Shown here piece after piece: positions 873 through 30,374 of a stretch of 35,505 nucleotides of DNA (positions within the stretch are counted from its first letter, which is position 1; the number at the start of each line of letters is the position of its first letter). Origin of the DNA: Verrucomicrobiales bacterium (GTDB taxonomy: Bacteria; Verrucomicrobiota; Verrucomicrobiia; Limisphaerales; SXTU01). Location of the stretch: NCBI GenBank assembly GCA_005791875.1, contig SXTU01000116.1, positions 1 through 35,505 on the forward strand, written 5' to 3'. Under the pieces are notes generated by a model. It was given only the letters and a program-made list of their open reading frames with translations, ran no database searches and had not been told where the DNA came from. A program made the position numbers and the translations under genes.

Positions 873-954
873 CGTGTTGCGTGTTGCGTGTTGCGTGTGG
901 GCCAAAGACGTCCGAGTCCCGTCTTCAACACGCAGCACGAAACACGCAGCACGC
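873..954. repeat. Inverted heptanucleotide repeat island between lepA and lepB
   Basis: The left arm (873-899) is three copies of CGTGTTG plus a partial copy. The right arm (926-954) is 7-base units of the AACACGC/AGCACGA type, which is the reverse complement of the left unit. About 25 bases separate the arms, so the transcript could fold into a long hairpin. The island sits just upstream of the likely lepB start and would be translated if an upstream lepB start were used. It resembles other short-unit islands in this window with different unit sequences. Confidence 0.75.
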
Positions 955-980
955 GATGGGGCAGGGGAGGGCAGCCGCCC

Positions 981-2210
981 GTGAGCATCCTGCTCCAATG
1001 GTTCCTCTCCGGCACGGTGCGGCAGGCCTGCGACTTGCGGAAGCATGTGCTGAACCTGGTCGCGGCGCAGCGCGACTTGCTCACGCCCGAGGGCATCCAG
1101 GCGATTGAGGAAGCCTGTGCGAAACTGCGCGCAGCGGTCGTGGCCAAGGCGGACAAGAAGGCGTTGCAGGCGGAGATGACGAACACGGAGGCGGTTGCCA
1201 ACAAATGGCTCAAGCCGCACCCTCATGCGAGCTGGCGCGAAAACGTGGAGGTGGTGCTCGTGGCCATCGCGGTGGCCATGGCGATCCGCACCTTCTTCCT
1301 TCAGCCGTTCAAGATCCCCACCGGCTCGATGCAGCCGACGCTCTACGGCATCACGGACAAGAGCTTTCGGAACGAGCCTGAGGTCAAGTTTCCCACGGGC
1401 CTCAACGCGTTCGTGGACTCGTGGTTTCGGGGGACCACTTACTACCACATCGTCTGCGAGGAAGACGGCGAATTGGAGGCGGTGGAACCGGCGCAGTTCC
1501 CCATCCCCGCGCTCAAGCGTTTCCCGTTTTTCCAACGCCAGCGCTTTCGGGTTGGGCAGAAGGTTTACACCGTCTGGTTTCCGCCGGACCAGTTGTTCGG
1601 AACGTTCTTTGGCACCACCGTGAACCGTTCGGGGATTCAACAGGGCCAACGTTTTCGCAAGGGCGAGGACATCCTCAAGGTCAGGGTCATCAGCGGTGAC
1701 CATCTGTTCGTTGACCGGCTGGCCTACAACTTCCGTCGCCCCGAGCGAGGCGAAATCATTGTGTTTGAGACGAAGGGCATCCGGAGCCTCCCTCAGGACC
1801 AGTTCTACATCAAACGGATGGTCGCCCTCGGCGACGAGCGGGTCCGCATTGGCGACGATCGGCATCTGCGCATCAACGACCGTCGTCTCGATTCAAGCAC
1901 GCCACGGTTCGAAAACGTCTATCACCTCACCGGCCCGCCTGAGGACAGCAAGTTCTCCGGCCATGTGAATGAGGTGGTCGCGAGGAGGTTTAACCGCTCG
2001 CTCGCGCGAATCTTCGAGGACGAGCGGCAGGAGTTCGCCGTCCGCCCCAAGCACTACATCGTCATGGGTGACAATACCATGAACAGCCTCGACTCACGCG
2101 ACTGGGGTGATTTCCCACAGGAGAACGTCATCGGCAAGTCCGCCTTTGTTTACTGGCCATTCCTGAGCCAAGGCGAGCGCCCGGGCCGGTTCGGCTGGTC
2201 ACATCGTTAA
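981..2210 (+). CDS. lepB: Signal peptidase I
   Basis: Membrane-bound Ser/Lys endopeptidase that removes signal peptides from exported proteins. With the GTG start at 981 the protein is 409 residues. An N-terminal region of about 85 residues leads into a transmembrane segment (VEVVLVAIAVAMAIRTFFLQ, near residues 89-108). The catalytic serine follows in PTGSMQPT (Ser116), the general-base lysine in YIKRMVALGDE (Lys278), and the conserved box GDNTMNSLDSRDWG lies near the C-terminus. The Ser-Lys spacing of about 160 residues is longer than in E. coli LepB and suggests an enlarged periplasmic domain. I chose GTG 981 because GGGGAGGG lies upstream and because the in-frame extension to 888 is only repeat DNA. 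It lies downstream of lepA, as in many bacteria. Confidence 0.93.
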   Translation: MSILLQWFLSGTVRQACDLRKHVLNLVAAQRDLLTPEGIQAIEEACAKLRAAVVAKADKKALQAEMTNTEAVANKWLKPHPHASWRENVEVVLVAIAVAMAIRTFFLQPFKIPTGSMQPTLYGITDKSFRNEPEVKFPTGLNAFVDSWFRGTTYYHIVCEEDGELEAVEPAQFPIPALKRFPFFQRQRFRVGQKVYTVWFPPDQLFGTFFGTTVNRSGIQQGQRFRKGEDILKVRVISGDHLFVDRLAYNFRRPERGEIIVFETKGIRSLPQDQFYIKRMVALGDERVRIGDDRHLRINDRRLDSSTPRFENVYHLTGPPEDSKFSGHVNEVVARRFNRSLARIFEDERQEFAVRPKHYIVMGDNTMNSLDSRDWGDFPQENVIGKSAFVYWPFLSQGERPGRFGWSHR

Positions 2211-2272
2211 AGAACTCTCAAAGGCCTTTGGCAAGCCTGCAAACATGATTTCCAATGTGGGTTATGTTTACT

Positions 2273-2301
2273 ACAAAGTTTCCCGTTTCAGGGAACTTTG
2301 T
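2273..2301. terminator. Hairpin between convergent lepB and permease genes
   Basis: ACAAAGTTTCCC and GGGAACTTTGT form an 11-12 bp stem with one bulged T around a short GTTTCA loop. It lies in the 94-base gap between two convergent genes and would be symmetrical in either transcript. Function as a bidirectional terminator is inferred from position. Confidence 0.6.
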
Positions 2302-2304
2302 CCA

Positions 2305-3453
2305 TTAATCCAAGGTCTTTAGCCCTTCCACCACGCTCATCTTCGCCGCAGCCAGTGCTGGGGCCAGGCTCGAAACCAACCCTAGCCCTGCCGCCACTAG
2401 TGAGCTAACGCCGACTATCCGGGGCGTGACCTCAAACGTCACAAAGATTCCGTTGGTTGCCTTTGAGATGTCCACGCCGTGGTTAAACAACCACCAAGAA
2501 CCACCCACGCCCAAGACAGCTCCAAGAAACGCCAAGCCGAAACTCTCCGCCAAGATGAACCCGAACAACTCCCAGCGCTGAAACCCCAACGCCTTCAGAA
2601 CGGCCAGTTCACGGAAGCGCTCGCGGATCGCCATGCTCATGGTGCTGGCGGACACCAACACCAGCGTGAAGACCACGACCGTCGAGATCGAGCCGATGAG
2701 GATTTTGATGTTGCCCCACATGGACACCATGCTCATCTGGAACGCCCGCTCCGTCTCGGCGCGCACCTCGGCGGACGTGTTTTCGAACGCCTTGTTGATC
2801 GCCTCAACGACTGTCGTCATCTCCTCGATGCTGCGCACCTTGACCCACCACGTCCCGACCTGGCCCAGGCTGCCGGAGGCCTCGTCCAGATACTTGTGGT
2901 GAAAGAAAACATTCCGGTCATCAATTGTCCCCTCGTAAAACCCCATCACCGTCAACTCCAAGTCACACGGCCAGATGGTCCCGGTGAACGGCAGCCGGTC
3001 GCCGAGCTTCATCCCGTATTTCTCGGCGGTGATCTTGCCCACGATGCACCCGCGCACGTTCTTCACCCATGCATCATGCTGGTCCATCGGCGTCTTCATC
3101 TCAGCCACCAGCGCGGGCATTGTCACCGGATCCAGCGCGAACTGCGCGAACGTCATGAACTTCTCATCGCGGAACTGCCCGCCGAAGAACGTGAACGGCG
3201 TCGCCGCCTCGACACCCGGAATCCGCTCCATCACCTGCCGCTGTCGCGACGGCAGCAGGTTCGCCAGCGAAATCTTGTTGCGCACGATCACCCGCAACGC
3301 CGCCCCGATGTCCTCCGGCGGCACCGTCATCTCGCGCACCACCACTTGCAGCATCACCAGCAGGAACAGGCTCACAGCGACGCTCATCAGCGACAGCAGC
3401 GCGCGCCGTTTGTTACGCAACGCATTCTTCACAATGAAGCCCGGAATGCTCAC
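2305..3453 (-). CDS. FtsX/MacB-type ABC transporter permease
   Basis: Inner-membrane permease of the FtsX/LolC/MacB family, 382 residues from GTG 3453. An N-terminal transmembrane helix (near residues 18-38) is followed by a large periplasmic MacB_PCD-like domain of about 200 residues. Three C-terminal helices then appear, including the FtsX-type segment with IRERFRELAVLKALGFQRWE. The GTG start is preceded by GGAGGAGGAT at good spacing; the upstream ATG at 3492 lies in repeat-derived sequence. The cognate ATPase gene lies directly upstream on the same strand but is broken (3534-4209), so this permease may be orphaned. No MacA-like adaptor gene is nearby. Substrate unknown; lipoprotein, peptide or drug export are the family options. 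Confidence 0.88.
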   Translation of the reverse strand: MSIPGFIVKNALRNKRRALLSLMSVAVSLFLLVMLQVVVREMTVPPEDIGAALRVIVRNKISLANLLPSRQRQVMERIPGVEAATPFTFFGGQFRDEKFMTFAQFALDPVTMPALVAEMKTPMDQHDAWVKNVRGCIVGKITAEKYGMKLGDRLPFTGTIWPCDLELTVMGFYEGTIDDRNVFFHHKYLDEASGSLGQVGTWWVKVRSIEEMTTVVEAINKAFENTSAEVRAETERAFQMSMVSMWGNIKILIGSISTVVVFTLVLVSASTMSMAIRERFRELAVLKALGFQRWELFGFILAESFGLAFLGAVLGVGGSWWLFNHGVDISKATNGIFVTFEVTPRIVGVSSLVAAGLGLVSSLAPALAAAKMSVVEGLKTLD

Positions 3454-3490
3454 GCTGGAAAAATCCTCCTCCCCCACCCTGCCCTGCCCC

Positions 3491-3520
3491 ATCTGTGTCC
3501 AACTGTGTTCATCCGTGGCA
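3491..3520. repeat. Three-copy 10-base repeat
   Basis: Three consecutive degenerate 10-mers, ATCTGTGTCC, AACTGTGTTC and ATCCGTGGCA, lie in the 80-base gap between the ATPase and permease genes. The period is 10 rather than the 7 of most other short-unit islands here. Confidence 0.55.
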
Positions 3521-3533
3521 AAATTATTTCCCG

Positions 3534-4209
3534 TCAGTCCGTCAGCTCGCCCTTCTCCAGATGCACCGAGCGCGACCCAAACGCGGCCGCCTTCGGATCG
3601 TGGGTCACCATGATCACCGTCTTGCCGGCGCTGCGACTCAACGCCTGCAAAATCCCCAGCACCTCCTGCGCGGAGTGCGCGTCCAGGTTGCCCGTGGGCT
3701 CATCCGCCACGATCAACCTCGGGTCCGTCACCAGCGCGCGCGATGGCCACCCGCTGCTCCTGCCCGCCCGACAACTGCCTCGGCAAATGGTGCGAACGGT
3801 CGCCAAGCCCCACGAGATCAAGCGCCGTCGTTGCCAGCCGCTTCCGCTCGCGACCGCCCAGCTGCGTCAGCAAGAGCGGCAACTCCACATTCTCAAACGC
3901 CGTCAGCACCGGGATCAGGTTGAACGACTGGAACACAAACCCCACGTTCTGGTTGCGCCAGTCCGCCAGCCCCGACTCGTCGAGCTGGCCCACGTCCACA
4001 CCTTGCACGAGACATTGCCCGCCTGTCGGACGGTCCACCCCCGCGATGATGTGCAGCAACGTGGACGTCCCCGACCCCGACGGCCCCATCAGCGCGAGGA
4101 ACTCCCCTGCCCCGATGTCCAGCGACACGCCATTGAGCGCCGTCACCTGGATGTCGCCCTGTTGATACACCTTCGAGAGGTTGCGGATGCTCACCACGGG
4201 TTCCGTCAT
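3534..4209 (-). pseudogene. ABC transporter ATP-binding protein (LolD/MacB-like), frameshifted and Walker A mutant
   Basis: Starting at ATG 4209 the protein reads as a LolD/MacB-type ATPase, with a Walker A region near residues 42-52 and the signature [14 protein letters not shown]. The frame then breaks in a run of alternating G and C at 3734-3742. The rest of the domain continues in another frame: [18 protein letters not shown] (Walker B and D-loop), then VIMVTHDP (H-loop), ending at 3534. Two missing bases would restore about 225 residues, the usual family length. Independently, Walker A reads [11 protein letters not shown]: the phosphate-binding lysine is Thr48 (ACG at 4066-4068 instead of AAG). 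A sequencing indel could explain the frameshift but not the lysine loss, so decay is the simpler reading. Confidence 0.82.
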
Positions 4210-4442
4210 GCGCGCGGAGAAATACGGCAACCCCGCCGCGAAAGCAAACCCGCCTGCGTAGGAGCCGACGTGAGAAGGCTCAAACTTTTCTTGCCCGCCG
4301 CAAGTCTGAGACTCGTCACCTCGTTTCCTACCATGAAGGCACCTTTCCCCTGCCCTTGCCGAACCTTGGCAGGGCCGCACTGCGCGAGACCTCGCTTTAA
4401 GCCGAACTTCGAAGTCGAGGCTGAAAGCCTCAGACATGACAG

Positions 4443-4563
4443 CCCGGGGCAACGCCCCGGGTAGCGGAACGGAAGCAGCACAGCCCTGAAGGGGCGAAAC
4501 ATTTTGTGCCGCCCTTTCAGGGCTCCGCGCCTCGTGCCGCACAACCCGGGGCGTTGCCCCGGG
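4443..4563. repeat. Nested inverted repeat of about 120 bp
   Basis: The outer arms are themselves palindromic hairpins: CCCGGGGC-AAC-GCCCCGGG at 4443-4461 and its exact reverse complement, with loop GTT, at 4545-4563. Inside lies a second inverted pair, AGCCCTGAAGGGGCG (4482-4496) against CGCCCTTTCAGGGCT (4510-4524), with one mismatch. The unit resembles REP/BIME-type or MITE-like dispersed elements. Mobility is not demonstrable from one copy. Confidence 0.7.
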
Positions 4564-4624
4564 CTGGTTTGTGATGCTCCTTCGGAGCGCCAGCTTCGGA
4601 ATTCGGGTTTAAGTGGAGGAACAA

Positions 4625-4643
4625 GGCCGTCCACAGGACGGCC
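4625..4643. repeat. Short perfect hairpin
   Basis: GGCCGTCC-ACA-GGACGGCC forms a perfect 8-bp stem with a 3-base loop inside the repeat-rich gap. No T-tract follows, so it is not an obvious terminator; it looks like another dispersed palindromic unit. Confidence 0.5.
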
Positions 4644-4860
4644 CTACCATCCTCCCGCAGGCAATTCTCCGCTTCGGCGTGCCGGCACTCCCCGGCGCGT
4701 CATCAACGGGAAGGAAGGCTCGGCGAAGGAGAGGTTCAAGTCAGAGAAATGTCACAGGGGCCAGCGGGAACCCGGCAAGGCCGTCGCTGCGAGCCGTCTC
4801 GGAGGACGAATGGATTAACGAGGACGACCGCAGGTCATCCCTATTGGATGCGGCGCGGGC

Positions 4861-5931
4861 CTAAATCCGCACCTTGAACTCCTCGCCGTGTTTCAACGAC
4901 ATCGCGAAGCCCGCCATCAGCTCGGGGATTTGCTCCAGGTCGCGAAGGTTCACCATTTCCACCGGCGAGTGCATGTAACGGTTCGGCAAACTGATCAGCC
5001 CGCTCGCGATGCCTCCGCGCGTCCAGAAAATTGCGTCCGTGTCCGTGCCGCTCGTCGCACTCGTCGCCTCGTGTTGGAGCGAAATCTTGAGCTGCGCCGC
5101 GACCTGCTCCAGCCGTTCCACGACCGCCGGGTGATTGCACACCCCGTGCGTCACCGCCGGCCCGCCGCCGAGCTTGATGTCCCCGTGGAGCTGCTTGCTC
5201 ACCGTCGGGTAATCCGTCGCGTGGGTCACGTCCACCACCAGAGCCACATCGGGCTTGAGCGTGTAAGCAATCTGCTTCGCGCCCAGCAGTCCGACCTCCT
5301 CCATGATGTTGGAGACGAAGCAAATCTCCGCCTTGAGCCGCTTCCTCTGCGGACGCAACAGCCGCAACGCCTCTGCCACCGCGAACGTCCCGATGCGGTT
5401 GTCAAACGCCCGCGCCACCGCGAGCTCCCCGCGCAGATGCTCGAACTCGTTCGTCATCGTGATCGGGTCGCCCACGCGCACGAGAGACTGCGCATCCGCC
5501 TTGTTCGCCGCACCGATGTCTATGAACAGGTCCGCGATCTCCGGCACCTTGCGCTCCTTCTCCAGCTTCATGAGATGCGGCGCGACGTTGCCGATCACGC
5601 CCTTCACCGGCCCCTTGCGCGAATGCACGACCACGCGCTGCGCCTTGGCCACGATGGCGTCCACCCCGCCGAGCTTGCGCACCCAGATGAAGCCGTTGTC
5701 ATCAATGAAGTTCACCACCAGCGAAATCTCATCCGCATGCGCCGCGAGCATCAAGCGCGGCCCGCCGCCCTTGTTCAGCACGGCCACGCAGTTGCCGTAA
5801 GCATCGGAAAACGTCTCGTCCGCAAACTCCTTCACGTAATCGAGCCAGACGCGCTGCCCGCGCGCCTCGTGGCCCGACGGACTGGGCGTGTTGACCAGCT
5901 TGGTGAGGAAGGACAGTGATTCAGAACGCAT
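4861..5931 (-). CDS. M42-family metallo-aminopeptidase
   Basis: Cytoplasmic co-catalytic metalloaminopeptidase of the M42 (FrvX/PepA/TET) family, expected to trim N-terminal residues from peptides; 356 residues from ATG 5931. The family metal ligands and catalytic residues are visible in order: His65 in LAAHADEI, the bridging Asp in ARAFDNRIG, the Glu pair in NIMEEVGLLGA, an Asp in VVDVTHATD and the final His in NRYMHSPVE. The N-terminal LVNTPSPSGHE is the usual M42 opening. Length fits the family. The upstream open frame to 6144 lacks conserved sequence, so I start at 5931, although no good ribosome-binding site is seen there. It stands alone between a repeat region and the peroxiredoxins. 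Confidence 0.92.
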   Translation of the reverse strand: MRSESLSFLTKLVNTPSPSGHEARGQRVWLDYVKEFADETFSDAYGNCVAVLNKGGGPRLMLAAHADEISLVVNFIDDNGFIWVRKLGGVDAIVAKAQRVVVHSRKGPVKGVIGNVAPHLMKLEKERKVPEIADLFIDIGAANKADAQSLVRVGDPITMTNEFEHLRGELAVARAFDNRIGTFAVAEALRLLRPQRKRLKAEICFVSNIMEEVGLLGAKQIAYTLKPDVALVVDVTHATDYPTVSKQLHGDIKLGGGPAVTHGVCNHPAVVERLEQVAAQLKISLQHEATSATSGTDTDAIFWTRGGIASGLISLPNRYMHSPVEMVNLRDLEQIPELMAGFAMSLKHGEEFKVRI

Positions 5932-6030
5932 GGAGGTGGAGGTTAAGCAGCGATAGAGGGCGAGTCCAGCCCGGGTGAATCGCGTGAACCAAGTCATCAC
6001 CCATCGCGAAGTCGAAGGCCGGCGCTCCAA

Positions 6031-6063
6031 CAAAAAATCCCCGCCCTCTCGCGAGGGCGGGGA
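6031..6063 (-). terminator. Rho-independent terminator of the peroxiredoxin gene
   Basis: On the minus strand TCCCCGCCCTC and its complement around a short CGCG centre form a strong GC-rich stem (6038-6063). Six T residues (6032-6037) follow immediately. It lies just downstream of the peroxiredoxin stop at 6086, the correct side for that gene. Confidence 0.85.
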
Positions 6064-6085
6064 TGTCGAGATTCGTTGGGGCGGA

Positions 6086-6628
6086 TTACTTCTTTTCCGC
6101 CACGCCGAGTTCCTTGAGCTTGGCGGCGATGTCTGTGGCGGCACTGGCTGGCTTCACAGCCTTGTCCACAAACAGGATTTTGCCGTCCTTGCCGATGTAG
6201 TAGGTCCAGCGCGCCGCCATGCCTCGCTCGTTGAGGACGCCGAGGGCTCCGGCGAATTCCTTCTTAGGATCGCTGAGGATGGCGTAGTCGAGGTCGAGGG
6301 ACTTGGCGAAGGCTGCGTTGCCCTTCTCGCCCTCGTGCGAGTCCACGCTGGCGGTGAAGTAGGCCGCGTCGAACTTCTTCAAGGCCGCGCCCTCGGCCTT
6401 GAGGTGCTTGCACTCAGCAGTGCAGCCGCCGGTGAAGGCTTTCGGGAACCACGCGATGACGAGGGCTTTCTTGCCCTTGAAGTCGGCGAGGCTGTAGGTC
6501 TTGCCGTCGCTGCCTTGGAGTTTGAAGTTGGGAGCGGCGTCGCCGGCCTTGAGGTCGGCGGCGGTGGCGGTCAGGCCGGTGAGGGCGAGCCCGGCAACGG
6601 TGGAGCAGAGGAGGGAAAAGGTTTTCAT
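6086..6628 (-). CDS. Exported peroxiredoxin (AhpC/TSA family)
   Basis: Thiol peroxidase reducing hydrogen peroxide or alkyl hydroperoxides; 180 residues. A Sec-type signal peptide ([19 protein letters not shown], cleavage likely after ATAA near residue 24) places it in the periplasm. The redoxin fold is complete: [19 protein letters not shown], then [16 protein letters not shown] with the peroxidatic Cys69. A second cysteine at 73 could be the resolving partner; the C-x3-C spacing differs from the C-x4-C of PrxQ/BCP. The gene follows a second, cytoplasmic peroxiredoxin by 34 bases on the same strand, suggesting one oxidative-stress transcript, and it ends at a strong terminator. Confidence 0.92.
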
Positions 6629-6662
6629 AGGGGTGACTTGGACGGCACGGGGCCGGCGCGGG

Positions 6663-7238: not shown

Positions 7239-7321
7239 AATCCTAATCTTGATCCTGATCCTGCTCCGCACCAACGAAGGGGCAGAGGGAGCAGGATCAG
7301 GGTCAAGATCAGGAGCAGGAG
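7239..7321. repeat. Inverted hexanucleotide repeat island
   Basis: The left arm (7239-7266) is degenerate 6-base units of the GATCCT type. The right arm (7289-7321) is the reverse-complement type, with units such as ATCAGG and AGCAGG. About 22 bases separate the arms. It lies between the peroxiredoxin start and the end of the membrane protein gene, both on the minus strand, so its hairpin would form at the 3' end of the membrane protein transcript. Confidence 0.75.
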
Positions 7322-7334
7322 CCGGGAAGGAGGT

Positions 7335-12980: not shown

Positions 12981-14545
12981 TGGTTCATCCGAATCACTTT
13001 GCCCGGCCGCGTGCCGAGGTGCTTGTCGTCCGCGACCACCACGACTCCGTTGACGGCCACGAGCTTGAAGCCGGTGGCGTATTGGTGGGGCTCCTTGAAC
13101 GTGGCCTTGTCCGTGACCTTCGCGGGGTCGAACACGACGAGGTCAGCCCACGCGCCTTCGCGAATGACGCCGCGGTCCTTCAGCTTGAAGGTCGTCGCCG
13201 GGAGGAAACTCATGCGGCGGACGGCGTCTTCGAGGCGGAGGAGCTTCGTCTCGCGCACATACTCGCCGAGGACGCGGGCGTTGTTGCCGTAGCCGCGCGG
13301 GTGAGGCACGCCCTCGCCGAACTTCCGCACGCCGCTGTCGGAGGCGAACATGGTGTTCGGGTGCTTCGCAAACTCGCGCAGGTCGTCCTCGCTCATGCCG
13401 TGGAAGACTGCGGACGCGCCACCGCTCTTCTCAATCTCCAGCAGCAGTTCCACCTGGTCGTCGAGCGAGTCGTTACCGCGCTTCTTCTTCGCGGCCTCGA
13501 CGACGTTTAGGCCGTTGAGCGATTTGTCCTTCGAGTAGTTGGCGATGACAGCGTAGGCGTAGTCGTCGCGGCCTTGCTTGCGGAGGCTGTCATTCATCTG
13601 CTTCACGATGCCGGGCTTCTGCGTCGGATCGCTGATCCGCTCGCGGAACTTGTCCGCACCGCCTTCGCGCGCGCTGTCGGGGATGAGCTGCGAAAGGCCG
13701 GTGCTGGAGGCGGGATAGACATACTGATCCTGCGTGATGTCTAGGCCGCTGGCGCGTGCTTGCTCAATCGCGCCAAAGACCTTGGCGGTCTGGCCCCAAT
13801 AAGTCTTCCCGGAGAGCTTGATGTGCGAGATGTGGCCGCGCGTGCCGCCCTCACGGGCGATCCGGAACAGCTCGTCGAGCGCCTTGAAGATGTTTTCGCC
13901 CTCGCTCCTCATGTGGCTGGCGTAAATGCCGCCGTGCGCACCGGCAACCTTGGCGAGTTCCACAATCTCCTCCGTCTTCGCGAAGGTGCCGGGCAGGTAG
14001 ATGAGGCCGGTGGCGAGGCCAACCGCACCATCCTTCATGCCTTGCTCGACGTAGCCCTTCATCTTTGCCAGTTCCGCGTCGGTCGGCGGGCGGAGGAAGG
14101 AGCCGCCCATTGCCTGACGACGCACGGTGTTGTGGCCGATGAGCGAGCAGACGTTGGGCGAGATGTTCGTGGTCTCCAGCTCCTTGAAATACTCACCGAG
14201 GTTCAGGCGCGAGCTGCCGCAGTTGCCGAGCACGAGCGTAGTCACGCCCATGCGCAGGAAGTTCTCGGCGCGCGGCTGGTCCTCGATGCCCTCGGCGTGC
14301 GTGTGCGTGTCCACGAAGCCGGGCGCGACCACGAGTCCCTTCACGTCCACGATGCGCTTCGCCGTGCCGGTCACGCGCCCGACGGCGGCGATGCGCCCGC
14401 CGCGCACCGCCACGTCGGCGAAGACGGCGGGATTGCCCGTTCCGTCCGCCACGCGCCCGCCCCGCAGTAGCAGGTCGTAATCCTGCGCGGGGGCAATCTG
14501 CGCGAAGACGCAGACCAACGCGCCGGTGAGGGAGGAGAGTTTCAT
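12974..14545 (-). CDS. Exported D-aminoacylase-like amidohydrolase
   Basis: 523 residues, amidohydrolase superfamily, N-acyl-D-amino-acid deacylase type. A signal peptide (MKLSSLTGALVCVFAQIAPA) predicts export. Core motifs: YDLLLRGGRVADGTG, the metal-binding DTHTHAE in place of the usual HxH strand, LGNCGSS with the metal-bridging-type cysteine, SHMRSEG, GHISHIKLSG, and FASDSGV with the catalytic aspartate. The C-terminal beta-sandwich returns with GAWADLVVFDPAKV. The likely reaction is hydrolysis of N-acyl-D-amino acids, for example from peptidoglycan or proteins, but related N-acyl-amino-acid or dihydropyrimidinase-like activities cannot be excluded. ATG 14545 is chosen because it gives the signal peptide. 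Its upstream region carries a 157-bp element with terminal inverted repeats. Confidence 0.9.
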   Translation of the reverse strand: MKLSSLTGALVCVFAQIAPAQDYDLLLRGGRVADGTGNPAVFADVAVRGGRIAAVGRVTGTAKRIVDVKGLVVAPGFVDTHTHAEGIEDQPRAENFLRMGVTTLVLGNCGSSRLNLGEYFKELETTNISPNVCSLIGHNTVRRQAMGGSFLRPPTDAELAKMKGYVEQGMKDGAVGLATGLIYLPGTFAKTEEIVELAKVAGAHGGIYASHMRSEGENIFKALDELFRIAREGGTRGHISHIKLSGKTYWGQTAKVFGAIEQARASGLDITQDQYVYPASSTGLSQLIPDSAREGGADKFRERISDPTQKPGIVKQMNDSLRKQGRDDYAYAVIANYSKDKSLNGLNVVEAAKKKRGNDSLDDQVELLLEIEKSGGASAVFHGMSEDDLREFAKHPNTMFASDSGVRKFGEGVPHPRGYGNNARVLGEYVRETKLLRLEDAVRRMSFLPATTFKLKDRGVIREGAWADLVVFDPAKVTDKATFKEPHQYATGFKLVAVNGVVVVADDKHLGTRPGKVIRMNQP

Positions 14546-16695: not shown

Positions 16696-16761
16696 GTTGA
16701 TGGTTGAAAGCTGTAAGTTGAAAGAAAACCAGCGTCCCTCTTTCAACTTTCACCCTTCACC
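16696..16761. repeat. Inverted heptanucleotide repeat island between convergent genes
   Basis: The left arm is four exact 7-mers in register: GTTGATG, GTTGAAA, GCTGTAA, GTTGAAA (16696-16723). The right arm is three in register: TTTCAAC, TTTCACC, CTTCACC (16741-16761). TTTCAAC is the reverse complement of GTTGAAA. Only 17 bases lie between the arms. The island fills the gap between the response regulator and gcvH stops and could serve as a bidirectional terminator. Confidence 0.8.
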
Positions 16762-20865: not shown

Positions 20866-20915
20866 CCGGGTTTTGAGTTTCGAGTAGAGGTTCCTAATTC
20901 CGAGTTCCGCGCTTC
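20866..20915. repeat. Heptanucleotide repeat island
   Basis: Read on the plus strand, 7-base units run GTTTTGA, GTTTCGA, GTAGAGG, TTCCTAA, TTCCGAG, TTCCGCG. The first half (GTTTNGA) and second half (TTCCNNN) differ, so this looks like two adjoining arms. It fills the gap between the reductase stop and the DUF3088 start. Confidence 0.55.
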
Positions 20916-20917
20916 GT

Positions 20918-21637: not shown

Positions 21638-21739
21638 AAGGTCGCGCGGAGCTTAGGGAGGAGGCACGCGAGCGCAAAGTCATTTTGCTCGGCAGCTAAA
21701 TTTCCTCTGCCCAACACCTCCGTGACCAGGCTCAAGATT

Positions 21740-21865
21740 CCTTCTCCCTTCGCGGAGCGAGGGGAGCAAGGTGGCCGCAGGCTGGATGAGGGGTGCGGCA
21801 CCATCACCAACGGGCGAAACCCCTCACCCCGGCCCTCTCCCCTTGCTCCGCAAAGGGAGAGGGAG
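21740..21865. repeat. 126-bp dispersed repeat, copy 1
   Basis: It starts CCTTCTCCCTTCGCGGAGCG and ends AAGGGAGAGGGAG, so the ends are inverted. The core holds GGATGAGGGGTGCGG and CCCCTCACCCC. A second copy of exactly the same length lies at 24940-25065. It resembles the CCCTCACCC-type dispersed repeats seen in many bacterial genomes. Confidence 0.85.
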
Positions 21866-21928
21866 TCAACAGCGCGGACGCGCGGTTCATCACACCAGAT
21901 GCCGCCGGGCTTCACCGCGACTTGCGCC

Positions 21929-22278: not shown

Positions 22279-23268
22279 GGTGAACTCACGGCTGGCGAAT
22301 CCGGCCGCCTGCAACTCGCGCAGTGGATTGCCAGCGCCGACAACCCGCTCACCACGCGCGTCGTCGCGAACCGCATCTGGATGCATCACTTCGGGCAAGG
22401 CATTGTGCCGACAGCGGACACCTTCGGAGCGCAAGGCCGCCCGCCCACGCACCTGGAGTTGCTCAACTGGCTCGCTGGCGAGTTCGTCCGGCGCGGCTGG
22501 TCGTTCAAGGAAATGCACCGGCTGATTCTGACCAGCGCGACGTGGCAGCAGAGTTTGGCGGACAGTGTTCAGTATTCAGTAACCAGTAATCAGTCAGGCA
22601 ACAGCAGCGCGAAGCGCCTCCCACTGAATACTGACCTGCTGAACACTGAATACCCCAAGCCCCTGGCCGTTGACCCGGCGAACACGCTCTACTGGCGCTT
22701 CCCCCGCCATCGCCTCGACGCCGAATCCATGCGCGACGCCTCGCTCTTCGTCAGCGGGCGGCTCAAGACCGGCAATCCCGGCGCGCACCCGTTCCCCAAG
22801 CCGAACGACAAGAACGAATACCACTTCACGCAGCACCGGCCCTTCCTCGCGGACTCCAGCCACGAGTATCGCAGCGTCTATCTGCCGTCGCGCCGGCTCG
22901 GCAAGCATCCCTACATGGAACTCTTCGACGGCCCGAACCCGAACGAATGCAACGCCCGCCGCCCCGTCTCCACGGTCCCGCTTCAAGCGCTCTTCTGGAT
23001 GAACAGCGACTTCATCCGCGACAATGCCCGCGCCCTCGCCGCGCGCGTCCTCTTCGCCGGCAAGCAACCCGAAGACCGCCTCCGCCACGCCACCCAGCTC
23101 GCCTACAATCGCCCGCCCACCAAGGACGAACTCACCGACCTGACCGCCTACGCGAAGGACTACGCCAAGAGCGTGGACAGTAAGGACGCCACCGAAAAAG
23201 ACCTCCGCGTTTGGACCAGCGTCTGCCGCCTGCTGCTCTCGGCGAACGAGTTTGTGTATCTGGATTGA
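22279..23268 (+). CDS. 5'-truncated PSD1 (DUF1553) domain protein
   Basis: About 329 residues matching only the C-terminal half of Planctomycete/Verrucomicrobia PSD1 proteins. It begins in the block GRLQLAQWIASADNPLTTRV, then NRIWMHHFGQGIV, THLELLNWLAGEFV, ATWQQS, RFPRHRLDAESMRD and ends LLLSANEFVYLD. The usual N-terminal signal peptide and PSCyt2/DUF1549 part are absent; the intact relative at 33054-34916 shows what is missing. No start codon lies at the beginning (first ATG is 22381), so it is probably not expressed as normal protein. It also contains an in-frame heptamer repeat insertion. The next gene is its usual partner type, DUF1501. Confidence 0.82.
   Translation, partial: GELTAGESGRLQLAQWIASADNPLTTRVVANRIWMHHFGQGIVPTADTFGAQGRPPTHLELLNWLAGEFVRRGWSFKEMHRLILTSATWQQSLADSVQYSVTSNQSGNSSAKRLPLNTDLLNTEYPKPLAVDPANTLYWRFPRHRLDAESMRDASLFVSGRLKTGNPGAHPFPKPNDKNEYHFTQHRPFLADSSHEYRSVYLPSRRLGKHPYMELFDGPNPNECNARRPVSTVPLQALFWMNSDFIRDNARALAARVLFAGKQPEDRLRHATQLAYNRPPTKDELTDLTAYAKDYAKSVDSKDATEKDLRVWTSVCRLLLSANEFVYLD
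22565..22653. repeat. Inverted heptamer repeat inserted in frame in a PSD1 gene
   Basis: The left arm is five 7-mers: GTGTTCA, GTATTCA, GTAACCA, GTAATCA, GTCAGGC (22565-22599). The right arm (22622-22653) is ACTGAATACTGACC-like units of the reverse-complement type. It encodes about 30 residues (SVQYSVTSNQSGNSS onward) between ATWQQS and AVDPANTLYWRF, where relatives have only about ten residues. The frame is kept. Confidence 0.78.
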
Positions 23269-25065: not shown

Positions 25066-25089
25066 AAGAACTTCGTGTGCTGTGCGCCG

Positions 25090-25842
25090 CTACTTCTCGC
25101 TAACTTTCTCGCTCACCCAACGCAGCCCATTCGCCACGGTGCGCCGGAAGGATGGGCTCTCCATGTCGTTGGCGTAACCGAGCGCGAAGTGGAAGAGCCG
25201 CGCGCCGCGATGCACGCGCGTCCACGCCACGGGCATGACGCCGTTCTTGTTCTCTCCCTCCATCAGCACCTGCACGTCGAGCGCGACCGGGCCGTAGCGG
25301 TAGATGTCGCACTTGGTGTTGAAGTCCTCAGTGCCGACCCAGATGGGATGCGGCTTGCGCGTGAGCTTGTCCACGTTGCCGAAGTTGCCGCCCTTTGCGC
25401 CGCCGTATTTCGCACCGAGCACCTCGACGTCGAAGTTCGGCCAGTTCTCCCACGCGTGACTGGTGGAGCGTAGCGCGACGAAGCCTTTGCCCGAGGCGAA
25501 GAAACGCCGCAGCACCTCGAGGTTGTGCGCATTGGGCGTCTTGCGCCGGACGAAGAACACGGCAGCGTCCGCTTCGAGCAGCTTCTCGATGCCTTTGAAC
25601 CCCGCGCTCGCGGCGTCCCATGTGAGCAGTGTGCAGGTCATCTTGTGCTCCGTCTCCAAGTAGCGGGCCAGCGCGGCGAGCGAATCATCCGTGCTGTAAG
25701 GCTTGGAGTCCTGCGAGCCGGAGACGAGGCAGACGCGAAGCGGACGTTGAGTTGGTGAATCGGCGGCGAATGTTGACGCGACAAGACAAAGGGCCAACGC
25801 AAACGAGCCGAGCACGAGGGAGCGTCGGGTGAGGTGTTGCAT
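25090..25842 (-). CDS. Exported ThuA-domain protein
   Basis: 250 residues. An N-terminal RR-containing signal (LTRRSLVLGSFALALCLVAS, cleavage near TFAA) predicts export. The mature part is a ThuA-like, glutamine-amidotransferase-fold domain: PLRVCLVSGSQDSKPYSTDD, LTWDAASAGFKGIEKLLEAD, ADAAVFFVRRKTP, FVALRSTSHAWENWPNFDVE and VAWTRVHRGARLFHFALGY. ThuA domains are linked to sugar metabolism and are abundant in Planctomycetes and Verrucomicrobia, but the reaction is not settled. ATG 25842 is preferred over the longer frame because it gives the signal peptide. It stands alone between a 126-bp repeat and the bcp gene. Confidence 0.88.
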   Translation of the reverse strand: MQHLTRRSLVLGSFALALCLVASTFAADSPTQRPLRVCLVSGSQDSKPYSTDDSLAALARYLETEHKMTCTLLTWDAASAGFKGIEKLLEADAAVFFVRRKTPNAHNLEVLRRFFASGKGFVALRSTSHAWENWPNFDVEVLGAKYGGAKGGNFGNVDKLTRKPHPIWVGTEDFNTKCDIYRYGPVALDVQVLMEGENKNGVMPVAWTRVHRGARLFHFALGYANDMESPSFRRTVANGLRWVSEKVSEK

Positions 25843-25870
25843 GCACGGAGTGATAAACCGCCAACACATA

Positions 25871-25887
25871 AGCTGAAAGTTGAAAGG
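25871..25887. repeat. Short two-unit heptamer remnant
   Basis: AGCTGAA and AGTTGAA in register, the same unit type as the island at 16696-16761 (GTTGAAA). Only two copies and no opposing arm, so this is weak. Confidence 0.3.
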
Positions 25888-25909
25888 CACGCGAACGCAT
25901 GGCCCTACT

Positions 25910-26380
25910 TCACCCCAGCGCCGCGAGCACTTCCGCCGCGTGCGCCTCGGGCTTCACCTTGGGCCAGACTTTCCGAATGCGCCCGTCGCCGCCGATGAGG
26001 AAGGTGACGCGATGGATGCCTTGATAGCGGCGGCCCATGAAGGTCTTTTCGCCCCACACACCGTAGGCGTCCACGATGCGCTTGTCCTCATCCGCGAGGA
26101 GCGTGAAGGGCAGCTTGAACTTCTTCACAAACTTGTCGTGCGACTTCACCGAGTCGGCGCTGACGCCGAGCACGACCGCGCCCTTCGCCATAAAGTCCGC
26201 GAAAGCGTCGCGGAAGGCGCAGGCCTCCTTCGTGCAACCGGGCGTGTCGTCGCGCGGATAGAAGTAGAGGATGACCGGACGGCCCTTGAAGTCTGCAAGC
26301 GAGACCGACTGGCCGCCGTTGGTCTGGGTCGTGAACGCGGGTGCGGCGTCACCTTCCTTGAGTTTTAGGTCGTGTGGCAT
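25910..26380 (-). CDS. bcp: Peroxiredoxin, BCP/PrxQ type
   Basis: 156-residue thiol peroxidase of the BCP/PrxQ group. The active site YFYPRDDTPGCTKEACAFRD has peroxidatic Cys49 and resolving Cys54, the classical C-x4-C pair. It continues VVLGVSADSVKSHDKF, LPFTLLADED and GIHRVTFLIGGDGRI. Cytoplasmic, thioredoxin-dependent. ATG 26380 (MPHDLKLKEGD) is used; ATG 26392 is four codons earlier and possible. The 5' end overlaps the end of the phosphatidyltransferase gene by about 32 bases, so the two are probably co-transcribed. It is the third peroxiredoxin in the window. Confidence 0.94.
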   Translation of the reverse strand: MPHDLKLKEGDAAPAFTTQTNGGQSVSLADFKGRPVILYFYPRDDTPGCTKEACAFRDAFADFMAKGAVVLGVSADSVKSHDKFVKKFKLPFTLLADEDKRIVDAYGVWGEKTFMGRRYQGIHRVTFLIGGDGRIRKVWPKVKPEAHAAEVLAALG

Positions 26381-26993
26381 GAGTGATTTCATTGAGCTGG
26401 TCTGTCTGGAGAATTTTTTGCGCAGGCGCGCTGTCCGGGCTGGCGCTGAGCAGCTTCATTCCGTCCATCACGTAGATGACACCGGAGACGGCGGTGCAGA
26501 CAGCGGCGGCGAGCGCAAACCAACCGAGCCAGTCCATCGGCCATTTCAACAGCGCCCACGAGACCGTAAGCATCTGCAGGACGGTCGCGGCCTTGCCGAT
26601 GAGGCGCGGACGCACGGGCACCTTGCCGCCGAGGGTGTAGTGCAGCACCGCGAAGCCGATGGCTTGGATGACATCGCGCCCGATGACCGTGCCGGCGAGC
26701 CAGAGCGGGAGATTGGGCAGGTGCGGGCGCTTGTCGAACGTGAGGAGCACCAGCGCGGAGACGAGGAGGAGCTTGTCCGCCACCGGGTCGAGCAGCGCAC
26801 CGAGCTCGCTCCACTGGTTGTAACGCCGGGCGAGATAGCCGTCGTAGGCATCGCTGATGGCGGCGACGGCAAAGGACAAGATCGCGGCCAACCGGTGCCA
26901 CTCGTCGCCCGTGCGCTCGTAGTAGAGCACCTGGACGACAAAGACGGGCACGAGCAGGATCCTTAGCACTGTGACTTTGTTCGCCGTGGTCAT
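26349..26993 (-). CDS. pgsA: CDP-alcohol phosphatidyltransferase (PgsA-like)
   Basis: 214-residue integral membrane enzyme. The family signature D-x2-D-G-x2-A-R-x8-G-x3-D-x3-D is complete (Asp48 to Asp73: SDAYDGYLARR, then LGALLDPVADK). The N-terminus MTTANKVTVLRILLVP is typical of CDP-diacylglycerol-glycerol-3-phosphate 3-phosphatidyltransferase, the committed step to phosphatidylglycerol. Five or six transmembrane segments are apparent. A cardiolipin synthase of the same family cannot be excluded. ATG 26993 is preceded by GGACGA. The C-terminal 40 residues after the last helix are hydrophilic and overlap the start of bcp. It is divergent from the carbonic anhydrase gene. Confidence 0.88.
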   Translation of the reverse strand: MTTANKVTVLRILLVPVFVVQVLYYERTGDEWHRLAAILSFAVAAISDAYDGYLARRYNQWSELGALLDPVADKLLLVSALVLLTFDKRPHLPNLPLWLAGTVIGRDVIQAIGFAVLHYTLGGKVPVRPRLIGKAATVLQMLTVSWALLKWPMDWLGWFALAAAVCTAVSGVIYVMDGMKLLSASPDSAPAQKILQTDQLNEITHATRPKTQGR

Positions 26994-27093
26994 TTCGTCC
27001 GGATCAAATTGGGACAGCAGCGAAGAGACGTCAACGCCGGTGGAAGGATTTTCTTGGCGCGGGGCGAGCGCTCCCGCCAAAGTCGGCGCCATC

Positions 27094-27735
27094 ATGCAAC
27101 GGCTCATTGACGGCGTTCATCGCTTTCGCTCCGACGAGTTCGGCGCGTATCGCGCGCTGTTCCAGCGGCTCTCTCGCGAGGGGCAGAATCCGCACACGCT
27201 CTTCATCACCTGCTCGGACTCGCGCGTGCTGGCGGAACTCATCACGCAGAGCCAGCCGGGCGATTTGTTCGTCGTGAAGAACGTCGGCAACATCGTCCCG
27301 CCTGTCGGCGTGACGGGTGAAACCAACTCGACCGCGGCCGCCATCGAGTTCGCGGTGAGCACGCTGGGCGTCAGCGACATCGTCGTGTGCGGCCACTCGC
27401 AGTGCGGCGCGATGCAGGCGCTGCTCGAAGGCCTCCCCCAGCCCGAGGCGATGCCGCACCTGGCCGCGTGGCTGCGGGTGGCGACTCCCGTCCGCGACAT
27501 CATCCAGCGGGGCTACCAGCACTTGACCGACGCCCGCGCACGGACGAACGCAGCCGCCCAGGAGAACGTGCTCTTCGCCATCGAGAACCTCGAGGCCTAC
27601 CCGGCGGTGAAGGCGCGGCTGGACAACGGCTCGCTGCATCTGCACGGCTGGTTTTTCGACATTGCGACGGCGGACCTGTTCGCCTTCAACCCGGAGACGA
27701 AGCAGTTCGAGTCGTTCTCGCAGGCGGGGGTTTGA
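27094..27735 (+). CDS. Beta-carbonic anhydrase
   Basis: 213-residue zinc enzyme interconverting CO2 and bicarbonate. Zinc ligands and the dyad are visible: Cys40, Asp42 and Arg44 in FITCSDSRV, His101 and Cys104 in CGHSQCGAM. VVKNVGNIVPP and the C-terminal LHGWFFDIATADLFAFNPET are typical of bacterial beta-CAs. ATG 27094 (MQRLIDGVHRFRS) is the conserved start; the frame is open further up but overlaps the divergent phosphatidyltransferase start. It ends 6 bases before the stop of the convergent nitroreductase-like gene. Confidence 0.95.
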   Translation: MQRLIDGVHRFRSDEFGAYRALFQRLSREGQNPHTLFITCSDSRVLAELITQSQPGDLFVVKNVGNIVPPVGVTGETNSTAAAIEFAVSTLGVSDIVVCGHSQCGAMQALLEGLPQPEAMPHLAAWLRVATPVRDIIQRGYQHLTDARARTNAAAQENVLFAIENLEAYPAVKARLDNGSLHLHGWFFDIATADLFAFNPETKQFESFSQAGV

Positions 27736-27741
27736 GCGCGC

Positions 27742-28778
27742 TCACACCGCCGGAATCAGCACTTCCTCCACCGTCCGGCAGGGCGTTGGGTTTAGGTTCG
27801 GACCGTAGCCCAAGCGCAGGATGTTTTGCGCGTGGCCCGCGTGGCCGATGACTTCCGTCACCTTGGGCCGGAGCGAAGGCACCTCGATGGGCTGGTCGAG
27901 ATAGGAGGCCCAGACCTCGTCCGCGGGCGCGCAATAGCACGCGGTCAAGCGCCTGCCCGCCGCCAGCCAGCCTGCCGGCCCGTCCGCGTCCGTGCCGAGC
28001 ACGACCAAGCCGGGCGAGTAAGCCGCGATGTCGCGGTCCTTGGCCGCATGGCCTTCGCCCAAATGGAAAGTCCGGATCACGATCGACCCCGCCACAGAGA
28101 GCAAATCGCGGGCGTTCTGCGCGGATTTGGGGATGCCGTCGCGCGCGTCGCCGGCGTTCGGATGCAGCCACGCGGCAAGTTCGAGGCGAAAGTGCTTGTT
28201 CGCCCACTGCTGCCGGTCGCCTTCAGCGATAAAATCGGCGATGACATTGCGCTGCGCACGGTCATCGGCGAAGCGGAGCCACGCGCCCTCGCGCTCCGCC
28301 GCCTTGACCAGCTCGTGCTGCAACTCGTCCGGCAGCGGATCGTCTCGGAAAAGCTGGCGGTTCGTGCGGCGTTTCGGAATCGCCGCAAAGAACGCCTCCT
28401 GCTTCGGCGTGGGCGCATCCTCGTCGCCGAGGCTCACGCGCGCGAGCAAGTCCGGGTCACCCGGCACCGGCCGCACCACCGTGCGGTCGAGGTAGCCAAA
28501 ATGCCAGATGGCCACGCGCAGGTGGGGAAGAGCGCGGAGCCGCAACTGATTAGGAGATGGCGGGCGGCGGGGTCGGTCACGTGCAACTGTCGGGTGCGGT
28601 CAGCGTGGATCTCCAGCGAATTGCCGTGCACCCGGAACTTCCACGCCGGGGTGTTGTTTTTCGAGGGCGCGAGCACGGCGTAGTGGAGGAGAAACCGGAG
28701 TTTGTCCGCCGCCGTCCCCAAGCGGGGGAAGTCGTCTTCGGACACATCCCAAGCGAGGCGATTCGAAATCGTTTGCAT
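27742..28778 (-). pseudogene. Nitroreductase-like (Acg family) FMN oxidoreductase, frameshifted
   Basis: Two frames make one protein. From ATG 28778: MQTISNRLAWDVS, then LLHYAVLAPSKNNTPAWKFR (the nitroreductase FMN-binding opening), DPAARHLLISCGSALF. The frame then breaks in a run of four G (plus strand 28524-28527). One extra base restores HLRVAIWHFGYLDRTV and the rest: KRRTNRQLF, AYSPGLVVLGTDADGP, WASYLDQPIEVP and ILRLGYGPNLNPTP near the end. The restored length is 345 residues, fitting the larger Acg-type nitroreductases. A homopolymer site is the classic place for a sequencing indel, so the gene may be intact in the organism. Substrate unknown. Confidence 0.82.
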
Positions 28779-28943
28779 AACATTGGGCCGGGGGTTCACC
28801 GGCAGGGCAAGCAGCCGACGCCCAGCCTCGGTGACTCGCCCCCGCTTGGCCGAGTGTCTCCCTGTCTTGCCCGGTGCGCGGCAAGGAATGTTCTGGCGCG
28901 CAGTCCTTGAACCCCATCCGCCTGCCCGCTACAACCGGCGCGC

Positions 28944-30374
28944 ATGAACAACAATCGCGGCCTCCCGCTGCCCGCTCCGCGCGTCACGCCGGTGCTTGAC
29001 CCCGCCTTCCGCCCCGCCGTGCTCGCCACGCACGCCTTCCGCGACGCCGCCCGCGCCACCGGCCAGGCCGTGCCGGTCACGCTGGCGCTGGAGCAGTCGG
29101 ACGGCTCCGTCTTCCACTTCCGCACGGAACTCGCGCCCGCTGGCCACGCGCTGGCGGCGGCGAACTTCAGTCACATCGAGCGACTCGCGAAATTTCTGCT
29201 GTGGCAACGCGGCGGCTGGCGCTTTTGGCTGGCAGCGGTCAGCGGTCAGCAATCAGCGGTCAGCGCGCTGGCGGCGCAGCTTCAAGCCCACTTCCGCGAC
29301 ACGGCCACGGGCAAGTTCGACTCCAACCTCATCGGCGAGCGCGTCTATGACCGGCCCATCGAAGTCGTCGCGTGCGATGCCGCGAGCCTGCCGCCGGAGC
29401 GCGCGAACGTGCAGTCGCTCGGGCGCAATCTCGACGGCTGCCGCATCGGCTTCGATCTCGGCGGCAGCGACCGCAAGGTCGCGGCGGTGCTGGACGGCAA
29501 GGTCGTCTTCAGCGAGGAGACGGTGTGGGACCCCTACTTCCATCCTGACCCGCAGTATCACTTCGACGGCATCATGGACTCGATTCGGAAGGCCGCCGCG
29601 CACCTCCCACGCGTGGACGCCATCGGCGCCAGCGCGGCGGGCGTGTATGTGAACAACCGCGTGAAGGTCGCCTCGCTCTTCCGCGGCGTCGCGCCAGACG
29701 TGTTCAACGCGCGGGTGAAGGACCTCTTCCTCGAAGTTCAGCGCGCGTGCCACGGCGTGCCGCTCGAAGTCGCCAACGACGGCGAAGTCACCGCGCTCGC
29801 GGGCTCGATGTCGCTCGGCGTGAACGGGGTCCTCGGCATCGCGATGGGCACAAGCCAAGCCGCCGGCTACGTCACGCCATCCGGGAACATCACCACCCGG
29901 CTGAGCGAGTTGGCCTTCGCCCCGGTGGATTACAACCCCGCCGCCGCATGCGACGAGTGGAGCGGCGACTACGGCGTGGGCGCGCAATACTTCTCGCAGC
30001 AAGCCGTCGGACGGCTCCTGACCGCGTCCGGCATCGAGACCGACGCGTCGCTGCCGTTGCCCGAGAAGCTCAAGCTCGTGCAGTCGCTGATGAAGTCCGG
30101 CGACTACCGCGCGCGGAAGATTTACGAGACGCTCGGCACCTACCTCGGCTACGCGCTGGCGCACTACGCAGACTTCTACGACTTCAACCACCTGCTGATT
30201 CTGGGTCGCGTCACCAGCGGCGCAGGCGGCGATGTCATCATCGCGGGGGCGAAGGAGGTTTTGCGCACCGAGTTTCCCGCGCTGGCCGCGCGACTCCAGT
30301 TCCACGTTCCCGATGAACAGGACAAGCGCCACGGCCAGGCCGTCGCGGCGGCGAGCCTGCCGAAATTGCACTGA
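28944..30374 (+). CDS. ROK-like ASKHA-fold ATPase or sugar kinase
   Basis: 476 residues. From about residue 168 a ROK-like ASKHA domain is visible: phosphate-1 loop IGFDLGGSDRKVAAVLDG, an IGASAAGVYVNN segment, EVANDGEVTALAGS near residue 275, and phosphate-2 loop GVLGIAMGTSQAAGYV. The C-terminus has LGRVTSGAGGDVIIAGAKEV. The first 165 residues are not recognised and contain an in-frame heptamer repeat (29233-29265). The exact substrate is unknown; the LGG-S and GTS loops favour a nucleotide-dependent kinase or ATPase. It starts at ATG 28944 and is divergent from the nitroreductase gene. The DUF692 gene follows 123 bases downstream. Confidence 0.75.
   Translation: MNNNRGLPLPAPRVTPVLDPAFRPAVLATHAFRDAARATGQAVPVTLALEQSDGSVFHFRTELAPAGHALAAANFSHIERLAKFLLWQRGGWRFWLAAVSGQQSAVSALAAQLQAHFRDTATGKFDSNLIGERVYDRPIEVVACDAASLPPERANVQSLGRNLDGCRIGFDLGGSDRKVAAVLDGKVVFSEETVWDPYFHPDPQYHFDGIMDSIRKAAAHLPRVDAIGASAAGVYVNNRVKVASLFRGVAPDVFNARVKDLFLEVQRACHGVPLEVANDGEVTALAGSMSLGVNGVLGIAMGTSQAAGYVTPSGNITTRLSELAFAPVDYNPAAACDEWSGDYGVGAQYFSQQAVGRLLTASGIETDASLPLPEKLKLVQSLMKSGDYRARKIYETLGTYLGYALAHYADFYDFNHLLILGRVTSGAGGDVIIAGAKEVLRTEFPALAARLQFHVPDEQDKRHGQAVAAASLPKLH
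29233..29265 (+). repeat. In-frame heptamer repeat within the ROK-like gene
   Basis: Four 7-mers in register, CAGCGGT, CAGCGGT, CAGCAAT, CAGCGGT, plus a partial fifth. They encode AAVSGQQSAVSA. No opposing arm was found nearby. The position is inside the unrecognised N-terminal part, where an insertion would be tolerated. Confidence 0.75.

Follow-up and report, generated by a model that had tools for sequence, protein, structure and literature searches.

What kind of process scatters short tandem arrays over a bacterial genome, often as two facing arms, while the repeated unit changes from one place to the next? The question is raised by a stretch of 35,505 nucleotides from a Verrucomicrobiales bacterium (contig SXTU01000116.1 of assembly GCA_005791875.1), called the window below, in which six loci carry degenerate arrays of mostly 7-base units; each such locus, with one arm or two, we call an island. 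The window is contig C52 of a 4.7-Mb draft genome (G000, ~91% complete), and we compared it with ten genus mates (G001-G010), among them the sister species G002, and with genomes and viral contigs from further afield. The islands are real and lie far beyond chance genome-wide, each consists of a single array or a pair, with units taken from a set that the whole genome shares and the genus shares in part, and paired arms converge by one direction rule, with the G-rich strand running inward. To this may be added, as direct observations, a 7-base period, families of units, independent arms in the CAGTNNT family, a characteristic placement, and orthologous sites at which islands persist or carry other units. 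The account of their origin that we tentatively favor, at a little short of an even chance, is that the islands represent dispersed heptanucleotide repeats in a many-unit version, with units copied between loci, grown by slippage, and kept where they are harmless.

Excess, period and unit families

An array was called in our lag scan where at least 17 of 21 compared bases matched, for lags 4-24, and dinucleotide shuffles served as controls. In a first G000 sample of 252,671 bp (the window and 20 sampled contigs), lag 7 gave 25 arrays against 0, 1, 0, 0 and 0 in five shuffles, and lag 14 gave 15; every other lag gave at most 7, including the multiples of three at 6, 12 and 18 (6, 7 and 7 arrays), and lags 5, 10, 11 and 13 gave none. 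An enlarged sample of 644,664 bp holds 79 lag-7 arrays against 1, 1 and 3 after shuffling, and 800,000 bp of the sister species hold 57 against 1. Further afield the same excess appears: a scan of bacterial and archaeal genomes, made in the CAGT-inward orientation only, found at least 117 stretches, and 80 of these loci contain 219 arrays (1 and 0 after shuffling), 86 of them not of the CAGTNNT family. Chance and assembly artefact are thereby ruled out, by the shuffles and by the islands in relatives, and the comparison with shuffled sequence that the initial annotation had proposed places the arrays far above expectation throughout the genome.

The same annotation had held that the units at different loci are unrelated, and hence that no repeat had spread. 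This does not stand. The 79 arrays of G000 fall into 42 of 1,172 possible unit classes, 28 of which occur once, while the commonest, AACACTG (the CAGTGTT unit) and AACACGC (CGTGTTG), account for 9 and 6 arrays. The first window island has 40 further matches in G000, both strands counted (40 of 84 candidates scored), and CAGTAAT-like stretches number 70 against 21 for a backward control, overlapping matches being counted apart; in such pattern counts a single island may be counted more than once. Among the 70 CAGTAAT matches, 93 of 124 mismatches fall at two variable (N) positions and none at the A or the G. The main units are families dispersed over many loci, not one per locus, and the claim of a different unit at each locus survives only in the sense, described below, that an orthologous site can hold another unit in another species. 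The broader idea of one architecture built from many units is supported.

With CAGTNNT excluded, G000 and G002 have 12 exact classes in common against 1.3 after letter shuffling, whereas the overlap with loci from other phyla stays near expectation (4 classes against 3.2 for G000; 5 against 1.9, maximum 6, for G002). The unit repertoire is therefore mainly a property of the lineage. A general unit set common to all phyla, besides the bait, was considered and rejected on the same counts. The bait itself has to be kept in mind, as loci L163-L279 and L331-L412 were picked with CAGTNNT or CGTGNNG and are biased to that extent.

One direction, independent arms

When an island has two arms, the strand read inward carries more G than C. 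This is so in 24/26 two-arm islands and 13/14 families in G000, although part of the set used there for direction, spacer and folding counts was chosen through CGTG and CAGT matches and is biased. It holds as well for 13/15 islands and 7/9 families in G002, and for 79/93 islands in the loci from other phyla (9 opposite, 5 even), including 8 of the 10 islands outside the bait family. Exceptions are two in G000 and two in G002, one of them a clear reversed CGTG pair in locus L152. Across 288 genomes of the phylum, CAGT-inward pairs occur in five, G000 included (33 matches, distributed as 11, 8, 3, 3 and 8), while neither a reversed CAGTNNT pair nor a scrambled-core control occurs in any. Viral contigs repeat the picture, with 74 inward CAGTNNT stretches against 0 reversed and 0 scrambled, and 8 inward CGTGNNG stretches against 0 reversed. 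By their record titles, the CAGT-inward stretches of bacteria and archaea come from at least nine phylum-level groups; the titles, many of metagenome-assembled genomes, name Verrucomicrobiota, Planctomycetota, Chloroflexota, Acidobacteriota, Bacteroidota, Cyanobacteria, Proteobacteria and Deltaproteobacteria, Bacillota (Ruminococcaceae, Oscillospiraceae) and Nitrospira.

The two arms are inverted and fold strongly (mean z -5.7 over 38 islands), and this is what one would see if strand switching at a hairpin copied one arm from the other, as the initial annotation had suggested. In a few islands, for example L174 and L213, the arms even match in order. Such copying gives no reason for a single direction, and in the CAGTNNT family, on which the following tests were made, neither arm is a copy of the other. 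Over 99 islands the likeness of the variable bases is 0.36 within an arm, 0.20 between the arms and 0.086 between random partners; within a genome, two arms of a single island show no greater likeness (0.22) than arms from different islands (0.27; 68 islands, 25 genomes, p 0.11), and ordered matches between arms occur in 5/137 islands against 5.35 expected after permuting units. Because same-genome likeness is equal and ordered matches sit at the permuted expectation, each arm seems to have been drawn separately from a common repertoire, and we regard hairpin template copying as very improbable. Slippage, the other route that had been named, could account for like units inside an arm, yet it leaves the fixed direction unexplained.

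Two arms that are independent and always convergent would follow if, at a break or paired nick, G/T-rich 7-base units were added in a telomerase-like manner to each 3′ end before the ends were joined. The direction rule across families and phyla, and the independence of the arms in both the permutation and the same-genome tests, agree with this, and so does the outer edge, where arrays begin at AGT: 68/197 arms lose the outer C only, the next commonest single loss being 21. Spacers of 0-1 base in 6/99 islands (by our own parsing) and the RecG locus, which looks like a replaced stretch and not a mere insertion when set beside the RecG sequence we take to be usual, point the same way. A fixed template sits oddly with the variable NN inside one arm, the many units of each genome would need many templates or none, and the RVT_1 reverse transcriptase profile was found neither in G000 nor in 9/10 genus mates, though the G000 draft is ~91% complete and a diverged reverse transcriptase could escape the model. 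On balance we consider such end extension unlikely. A telomerase-like reverse transcriptase that makes tandem-repeat DNA unit by unit is known in DRT10, where, in the parts of the report drawn on here, the product is a defence cDNA and not a chromosomal island (PMC12632851). We would also give a small chance to a sequence-flexible but direction-strict activity, not based on a known reverse transcriptase and present in many bacterial phyla and some phages, which would put 7-base repeats on both 3′ ends at a break and join them, with words specific to each lineage; if it exists, it would supply genomes with convergent heptad islands, both where genes meet and within protein loops.

The spacers between the arms bear on another possibility, that the islands are small mobile hairpins of the repetitive extragenic palindrome (REP) or miniature inverted-repeat transposable element (MITE) kind, moved by a Y1 or other transposase, with arms that are repetitive by coincidence. 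GTCCG/CGGAC recurs in spacers across unit families, in 13/25 of G000 against 2.8 (maximum of 200 controls 9) and in 6/14 of G002 against 0.9 (maximum 4), and another palindromic element occupies the third window junction in G002 and G008. Other phyla show no enrichment of the motif (3/65 against 3.7), it is in 0/2 islands of other genus mates, the spacers differ between loci, and they self-pair no more than shuffles. Nor does the Y1_Tnp profile track the islands: G000 has two matches, G003, G009 and G010 have none, and G052, which lacks the CAGTNNT pair, carries 48. We therefore rate mobile hairpins as quite unlikely. In REP/RAYT palindromes one stem end bears a tag, GTAG or CGTC, according to the portion of PMC3733652 used here, and the Y1 (RAYT) transposase does not accompany the islands. 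Two further candidates failed: a palindromic spacer centre, no self-pairing beyond shuffles being found in any of four sets, and a partner enzyme, neither reverse transcriptase nor Y1 transposase being associated with islands.

Placement in genes, junctions and phages

Half of the 66 islands placed in G000 lie inside predicted genes (33), with 22 in co-directional gaps, 7 at a gene 5′ edge, 2 in divergent gaps, 1 in a convergent gap and 1 at a contig end; the 48 of G002 divide into 16 inside genes, 23 co-directional, 3 at a gene 5′ edge, 4 divergent, 1 convergent and 1 at a contig end. Among gaps of 40-400 nt in the two genomes together, islands occur in 37/383 co-directional, 4/99 divergent and 1/88 convergent gaps (p 0.002). 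The downstream edge of the island lies within 10 nt of the start codon in 22/40 cases against 10.4 expected (maximum 20 in 5,000 simulations), with starts called by our own simple, hexamer-based gene finder, which might favour starts adjoining arrays; several of the predicted starts look right from the protein sequence. The stop-codon side has no such excess (9 against 10.4).

Selected regulatory sites, that is, arrays bound by a protein or acting in the mRNA at junctions, for instance on the translation of the next gene, a role already suggested for TAACTGA, would explain the excess in co-directional gaps and beside start codons as well as a constant core with variable bases. The placement is also like that published for TAACTGA arrays, in the part of PMC4679880 drawn on here, and in one phage locus (L340, with a tail tape-measure gene) islands stand at 10/12 junctions over 15 nt. 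Short gaps by themselves, however, would place islands near both codons, the in-gene half of the G000 islands does not fit, orthologous sites carry different units, and folding energy has no mRNA-strand bias (sense lower in 16, antisense lower in 22; 51 and 55 in viral loci), which also removes strand-selected mRNA hairpins as a candidate. We think a regulatory role improbable. Other functions were tried and set aside. Terminators as the main role do not agree with convergent gaps in G000 and G002 that are nearly free of islands (1/88), although the third window island, in a convergent gap, and 3/6 viral convergent gaps are counter-examples to that rejection; replacement of a Shine-Dalgarno motif fails since such motifs are rare everywhere (1/23 against 27/453).

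Proteins whose genes carry an island in frame include RecG, UvrD, LpxB, EPSP synthase and PSD1 proteins, as well as an FtsJ-type methyltransferase, a heptosyltransferase and a nickel insertion protein. Housekeeping proteins gain extra in-frame peptides from the islands, a point of importance for annotation and for protein evolution.

In the bait-fetched viral loci, an island occurs in 106/199 co-directional gaps. Of 202 breakpoints, 70 are no more than 50 bp from an island, against 17% for random positions (maximum 26%), but islands as points of viral rearrangement were rejected, gaps with an island having breakpoints in 25/95 cases and gaps without in 11/52 (p 0.55). As a separate observation, the arms at two junctions of L340 (1184-1301 and 2263-2521) are swapped, AGTAGGG standing with AGCGAAT at one and the reverse at the other; this mixed-arm pair looks like a two-gene block set into the middle of an island, which is suggestive only. 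A genus with many units and phages rich in islands together make the maker of the islands searchable by comparison.

Window islands, orthologous sites and known repeats

The islands of the window, with the method that delimits each arm, are as follows.

873..898, plus strand: left arm of island 1, CGTGTTG in 3.7 copies (Tandem Repeats Finder and sequence)
927..954, minus strand: right arm of island 1, CAACACG-type (sequence and Tandem Repeats Finder)
7240..7267, plus strand: left arm of island 2, period 6, ATCCTG (GATCCT-like) (Tandem Repeats Finder)
7288..7322, minus strand: right arm of island 2, GGAGCA/CAGGAT (Tandem Repeats Finder)
16696..16724, plus strand: left arm of island 3, GTTGAAA-like and weak (by eye)
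16740..16761, minus strand: right arm of island 3 (own array scan)
20866..20915, no strand assigned: island 4, a single degenerate direct array GAGTTTC/GTTCCGA with no clear second arm in G000 (by eye)
22563..22596, plus strand: left arm of island 5, CAGTNNT, in frame in a PSD1 (DUF1553) gene
22623..22653, minus strand: right arm of island 5, ACTGANN (Tandem Repeats Finder)
22381..23268, plus strand: piece of the PSD1-domain gene that hosts island 5 (Pfam PF07587, E 6e-63)
29228..29266, plus strand: island 6, a single CAGCGGT arm within a predicted gene (28944-30374) that has no Pfam match

All six loci are present where they had been described. The two-arm architecture attributed to them is found at four, island 4 being one direct array and island 6 one arm. 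Taken alone, the window leaves several of the six marginal: Tandem Repeats Finder at its lowest threshold recovers the arms of 4/6 (scores 32-54) and nothing at 16696-16761 or 20866-20915, our own array scan recovers 5/6 and misses 20866, and Rfam has no match within the window. Island 1, with a spacer of ~28 between its arms, sits between the LepA C-terminus (1-837) and a signal peptidase gene that begins at ~981; island 2 adjoins a redoxin gene, island 3 lies in the convergent gap between a response regulator gene and gcvH, and island 4 separates a reductase gene from the gene that comes next on the minus strand.

In the genus mates, island 1 is present in G002 with the same spacer and in G005 at the same site with a different one; it is absent at the site in seven other relatives, and in G009 no LepA orthologue was found. 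Island 2 is absent from G002, where the flanks are contiguous, and its point in G001 and G005 holds degenerate arms (by eye). Site 3 has GTTGAGA-type islands in G004 and G005, a different palindrome in G002 and G008, and nothing in G003, while at site 4 G002, G004 and G005 carry related arrays and G008 carries none (by eye). A bulk comparison of orthologues, in which 24.6 kb of the 800 kb of G002 aligned to the G000 set, held three islands. Orthologous islands with indels or other units are found in the locus pairs L017/L295, L027/L285 and L146/L131. The start of one gene, which we take from its sequence to be glycogen-synthase-like, has a 7-base island upstream in G000 and a 10-base island in G002, and a PSD1-type gene, 84% identical between G000 and G008, has a two-arm CAGTNNT island in G000 where G008 has (CGGCAAT)4, a difference that could have arisen by gene conversion, PSD1 paralogues being many. 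A site can thus persist while its unit differs, and these other units support the proposal that some process continually makes or replaces islands.

Some neighbouring observations belong to the same sites. Loci L105, L106 and L301, at junctions of G002 and G008, carry the palindrome GTCGCAACCTTCAGGTTGCG..., the corresponding places in G000 holding either a heptamer island or its neighbour gene. A period-10 repeat (ATCTGTGTCC / ATTCGTGTTC) occurs at 3489-3522 of the window and, paired and inverted, at ~15800-16250 of L285, the glycogen-synthase junction of G002. Before an ispD-like start in G000, a single arm (L022, 3360-3397) resembles the right arm of a G002 island (L292, ~13990-14077), and the gene next upstream is a different one, which would fit a rearrangement that ran through the island. 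The LepA fragment next to island 1 (window 7-834) has 56-58% amino-acid identity with its counterparts in G001-G008 and G010, while its 3′ DNA end looks much closer, and it is possibly a mixed or unusual copy.

How would dispersed heptanucleotide repeats of many units, as we favor, have come to lie where they do? New arrays would be seeded by units copied out of other loci, 7-base slippage would lengthen each arm separately, and islands would stay where they do little harm, mostly at the stop-to-start junctions of co-directional pairs and, inside genes, in frame within variable protein segments. Several points weigh against this account. Slippage and dispersal alone do not predict the fixed direction, and no copying event was directly observed; the arm lengths of island 1 are unchanged between G000 and G002 while its bases changed (by eye), which means that arms do not alter their length quickly; the start positions rest on our own simple gene finder; and in the viral loci islands occupy 3/6 convergent and 3/6 divergent gaps, so that a co-directional preference is not shown there. 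Any account has three hard constraints to satisfy: the direction is single, the arms are independent, and one orthologous site can hold different units.

The short tandemly repeated repetitive (STRR) heptamers of cyanobacteria are dispersed and have a period of 7, as the islands here do. They had been named as the nearest parallel, one without described paired inverted arms; the heptamer likeness holds, but paired arms are already in print for the GGGAATC arrays of Xanthomonas, with 70 and 75 convergent pairs in two genomes, in the portion of Rehm et al. 2015 considered here (PMC4692102). The same portion notes that the inverted repeats can form stem-loops or cruciforms and that Nostoc has only few heptamer pairs. 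Both systems have dispersed 7-base units with variable positions (GGGANTN there), and the features of the Xanthomonas type that recur here are tandem 7-base units with constant and variable positions and convergent pairs with G inward; that the G-rich strand runs inward in Xanthomonas is our own reading of 'convergent'. As far as that portion goes, the Xanthomonas repeats are one family with quadruplex-capable G-runs, mostly intergenic and mostly between genes of the same direction, with 7-11% intragenic (PMC4692102), whereas here there are many families, mostly without G-runs, half of the islands are in genes, and phages have them too. The leading units CAGTNNT, CGTGTTG and GTTGAAA contain no GGG.

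A second relative is the TAACTGA array of Beggiatoaceae (MacGregor 2015, PMC4679880), which in the part of the paper used here directly precedes start codons and also occurs inside open reading frames in reverse orientation; among 170 sets a single pair is inverted, and other heptamers are rarely repeated there. Its reverse complement, TCAGTTA, is a CAGTNNT unit. The CAGTNNT family includes the TAACTGA unit, but in G000 the AAT, ATT and GTT variants dominate matches from a search seeded with AAT, and the islands likewise sit just before starts (the 22/40 above, for all units). Among long simple sequence repeats heptamers are the commonest (Mrazek et al. 2007, as cited in parts of PMC4692102 and PMC4679880), and those citing parts mention no inverted architecture for them; they refer the bacterial heptamer excess to a proposed polymerase slippage. 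The literature considered, largely without subscription papers, gives no account of paired islands with many units, of a direction rule across units, or of phage islands. The paired heptamer architecture is already known from Xanthomonas, and the multi-unit form is new.

Elsewhere in the window, 21738-21867 is a dispersed palindromic element of ~128 bp (CCCTCACCCCGGCCCTCTCC type), with many copies (~81-90% identity) among the matches listed, in six genus mates. Close palindromic stretches at 4440-4566 and 4618-4650 (CCCGGGGC..GCCCCGGG and GGCCGTCC..GGACGGCC) look like other dispersed elements.

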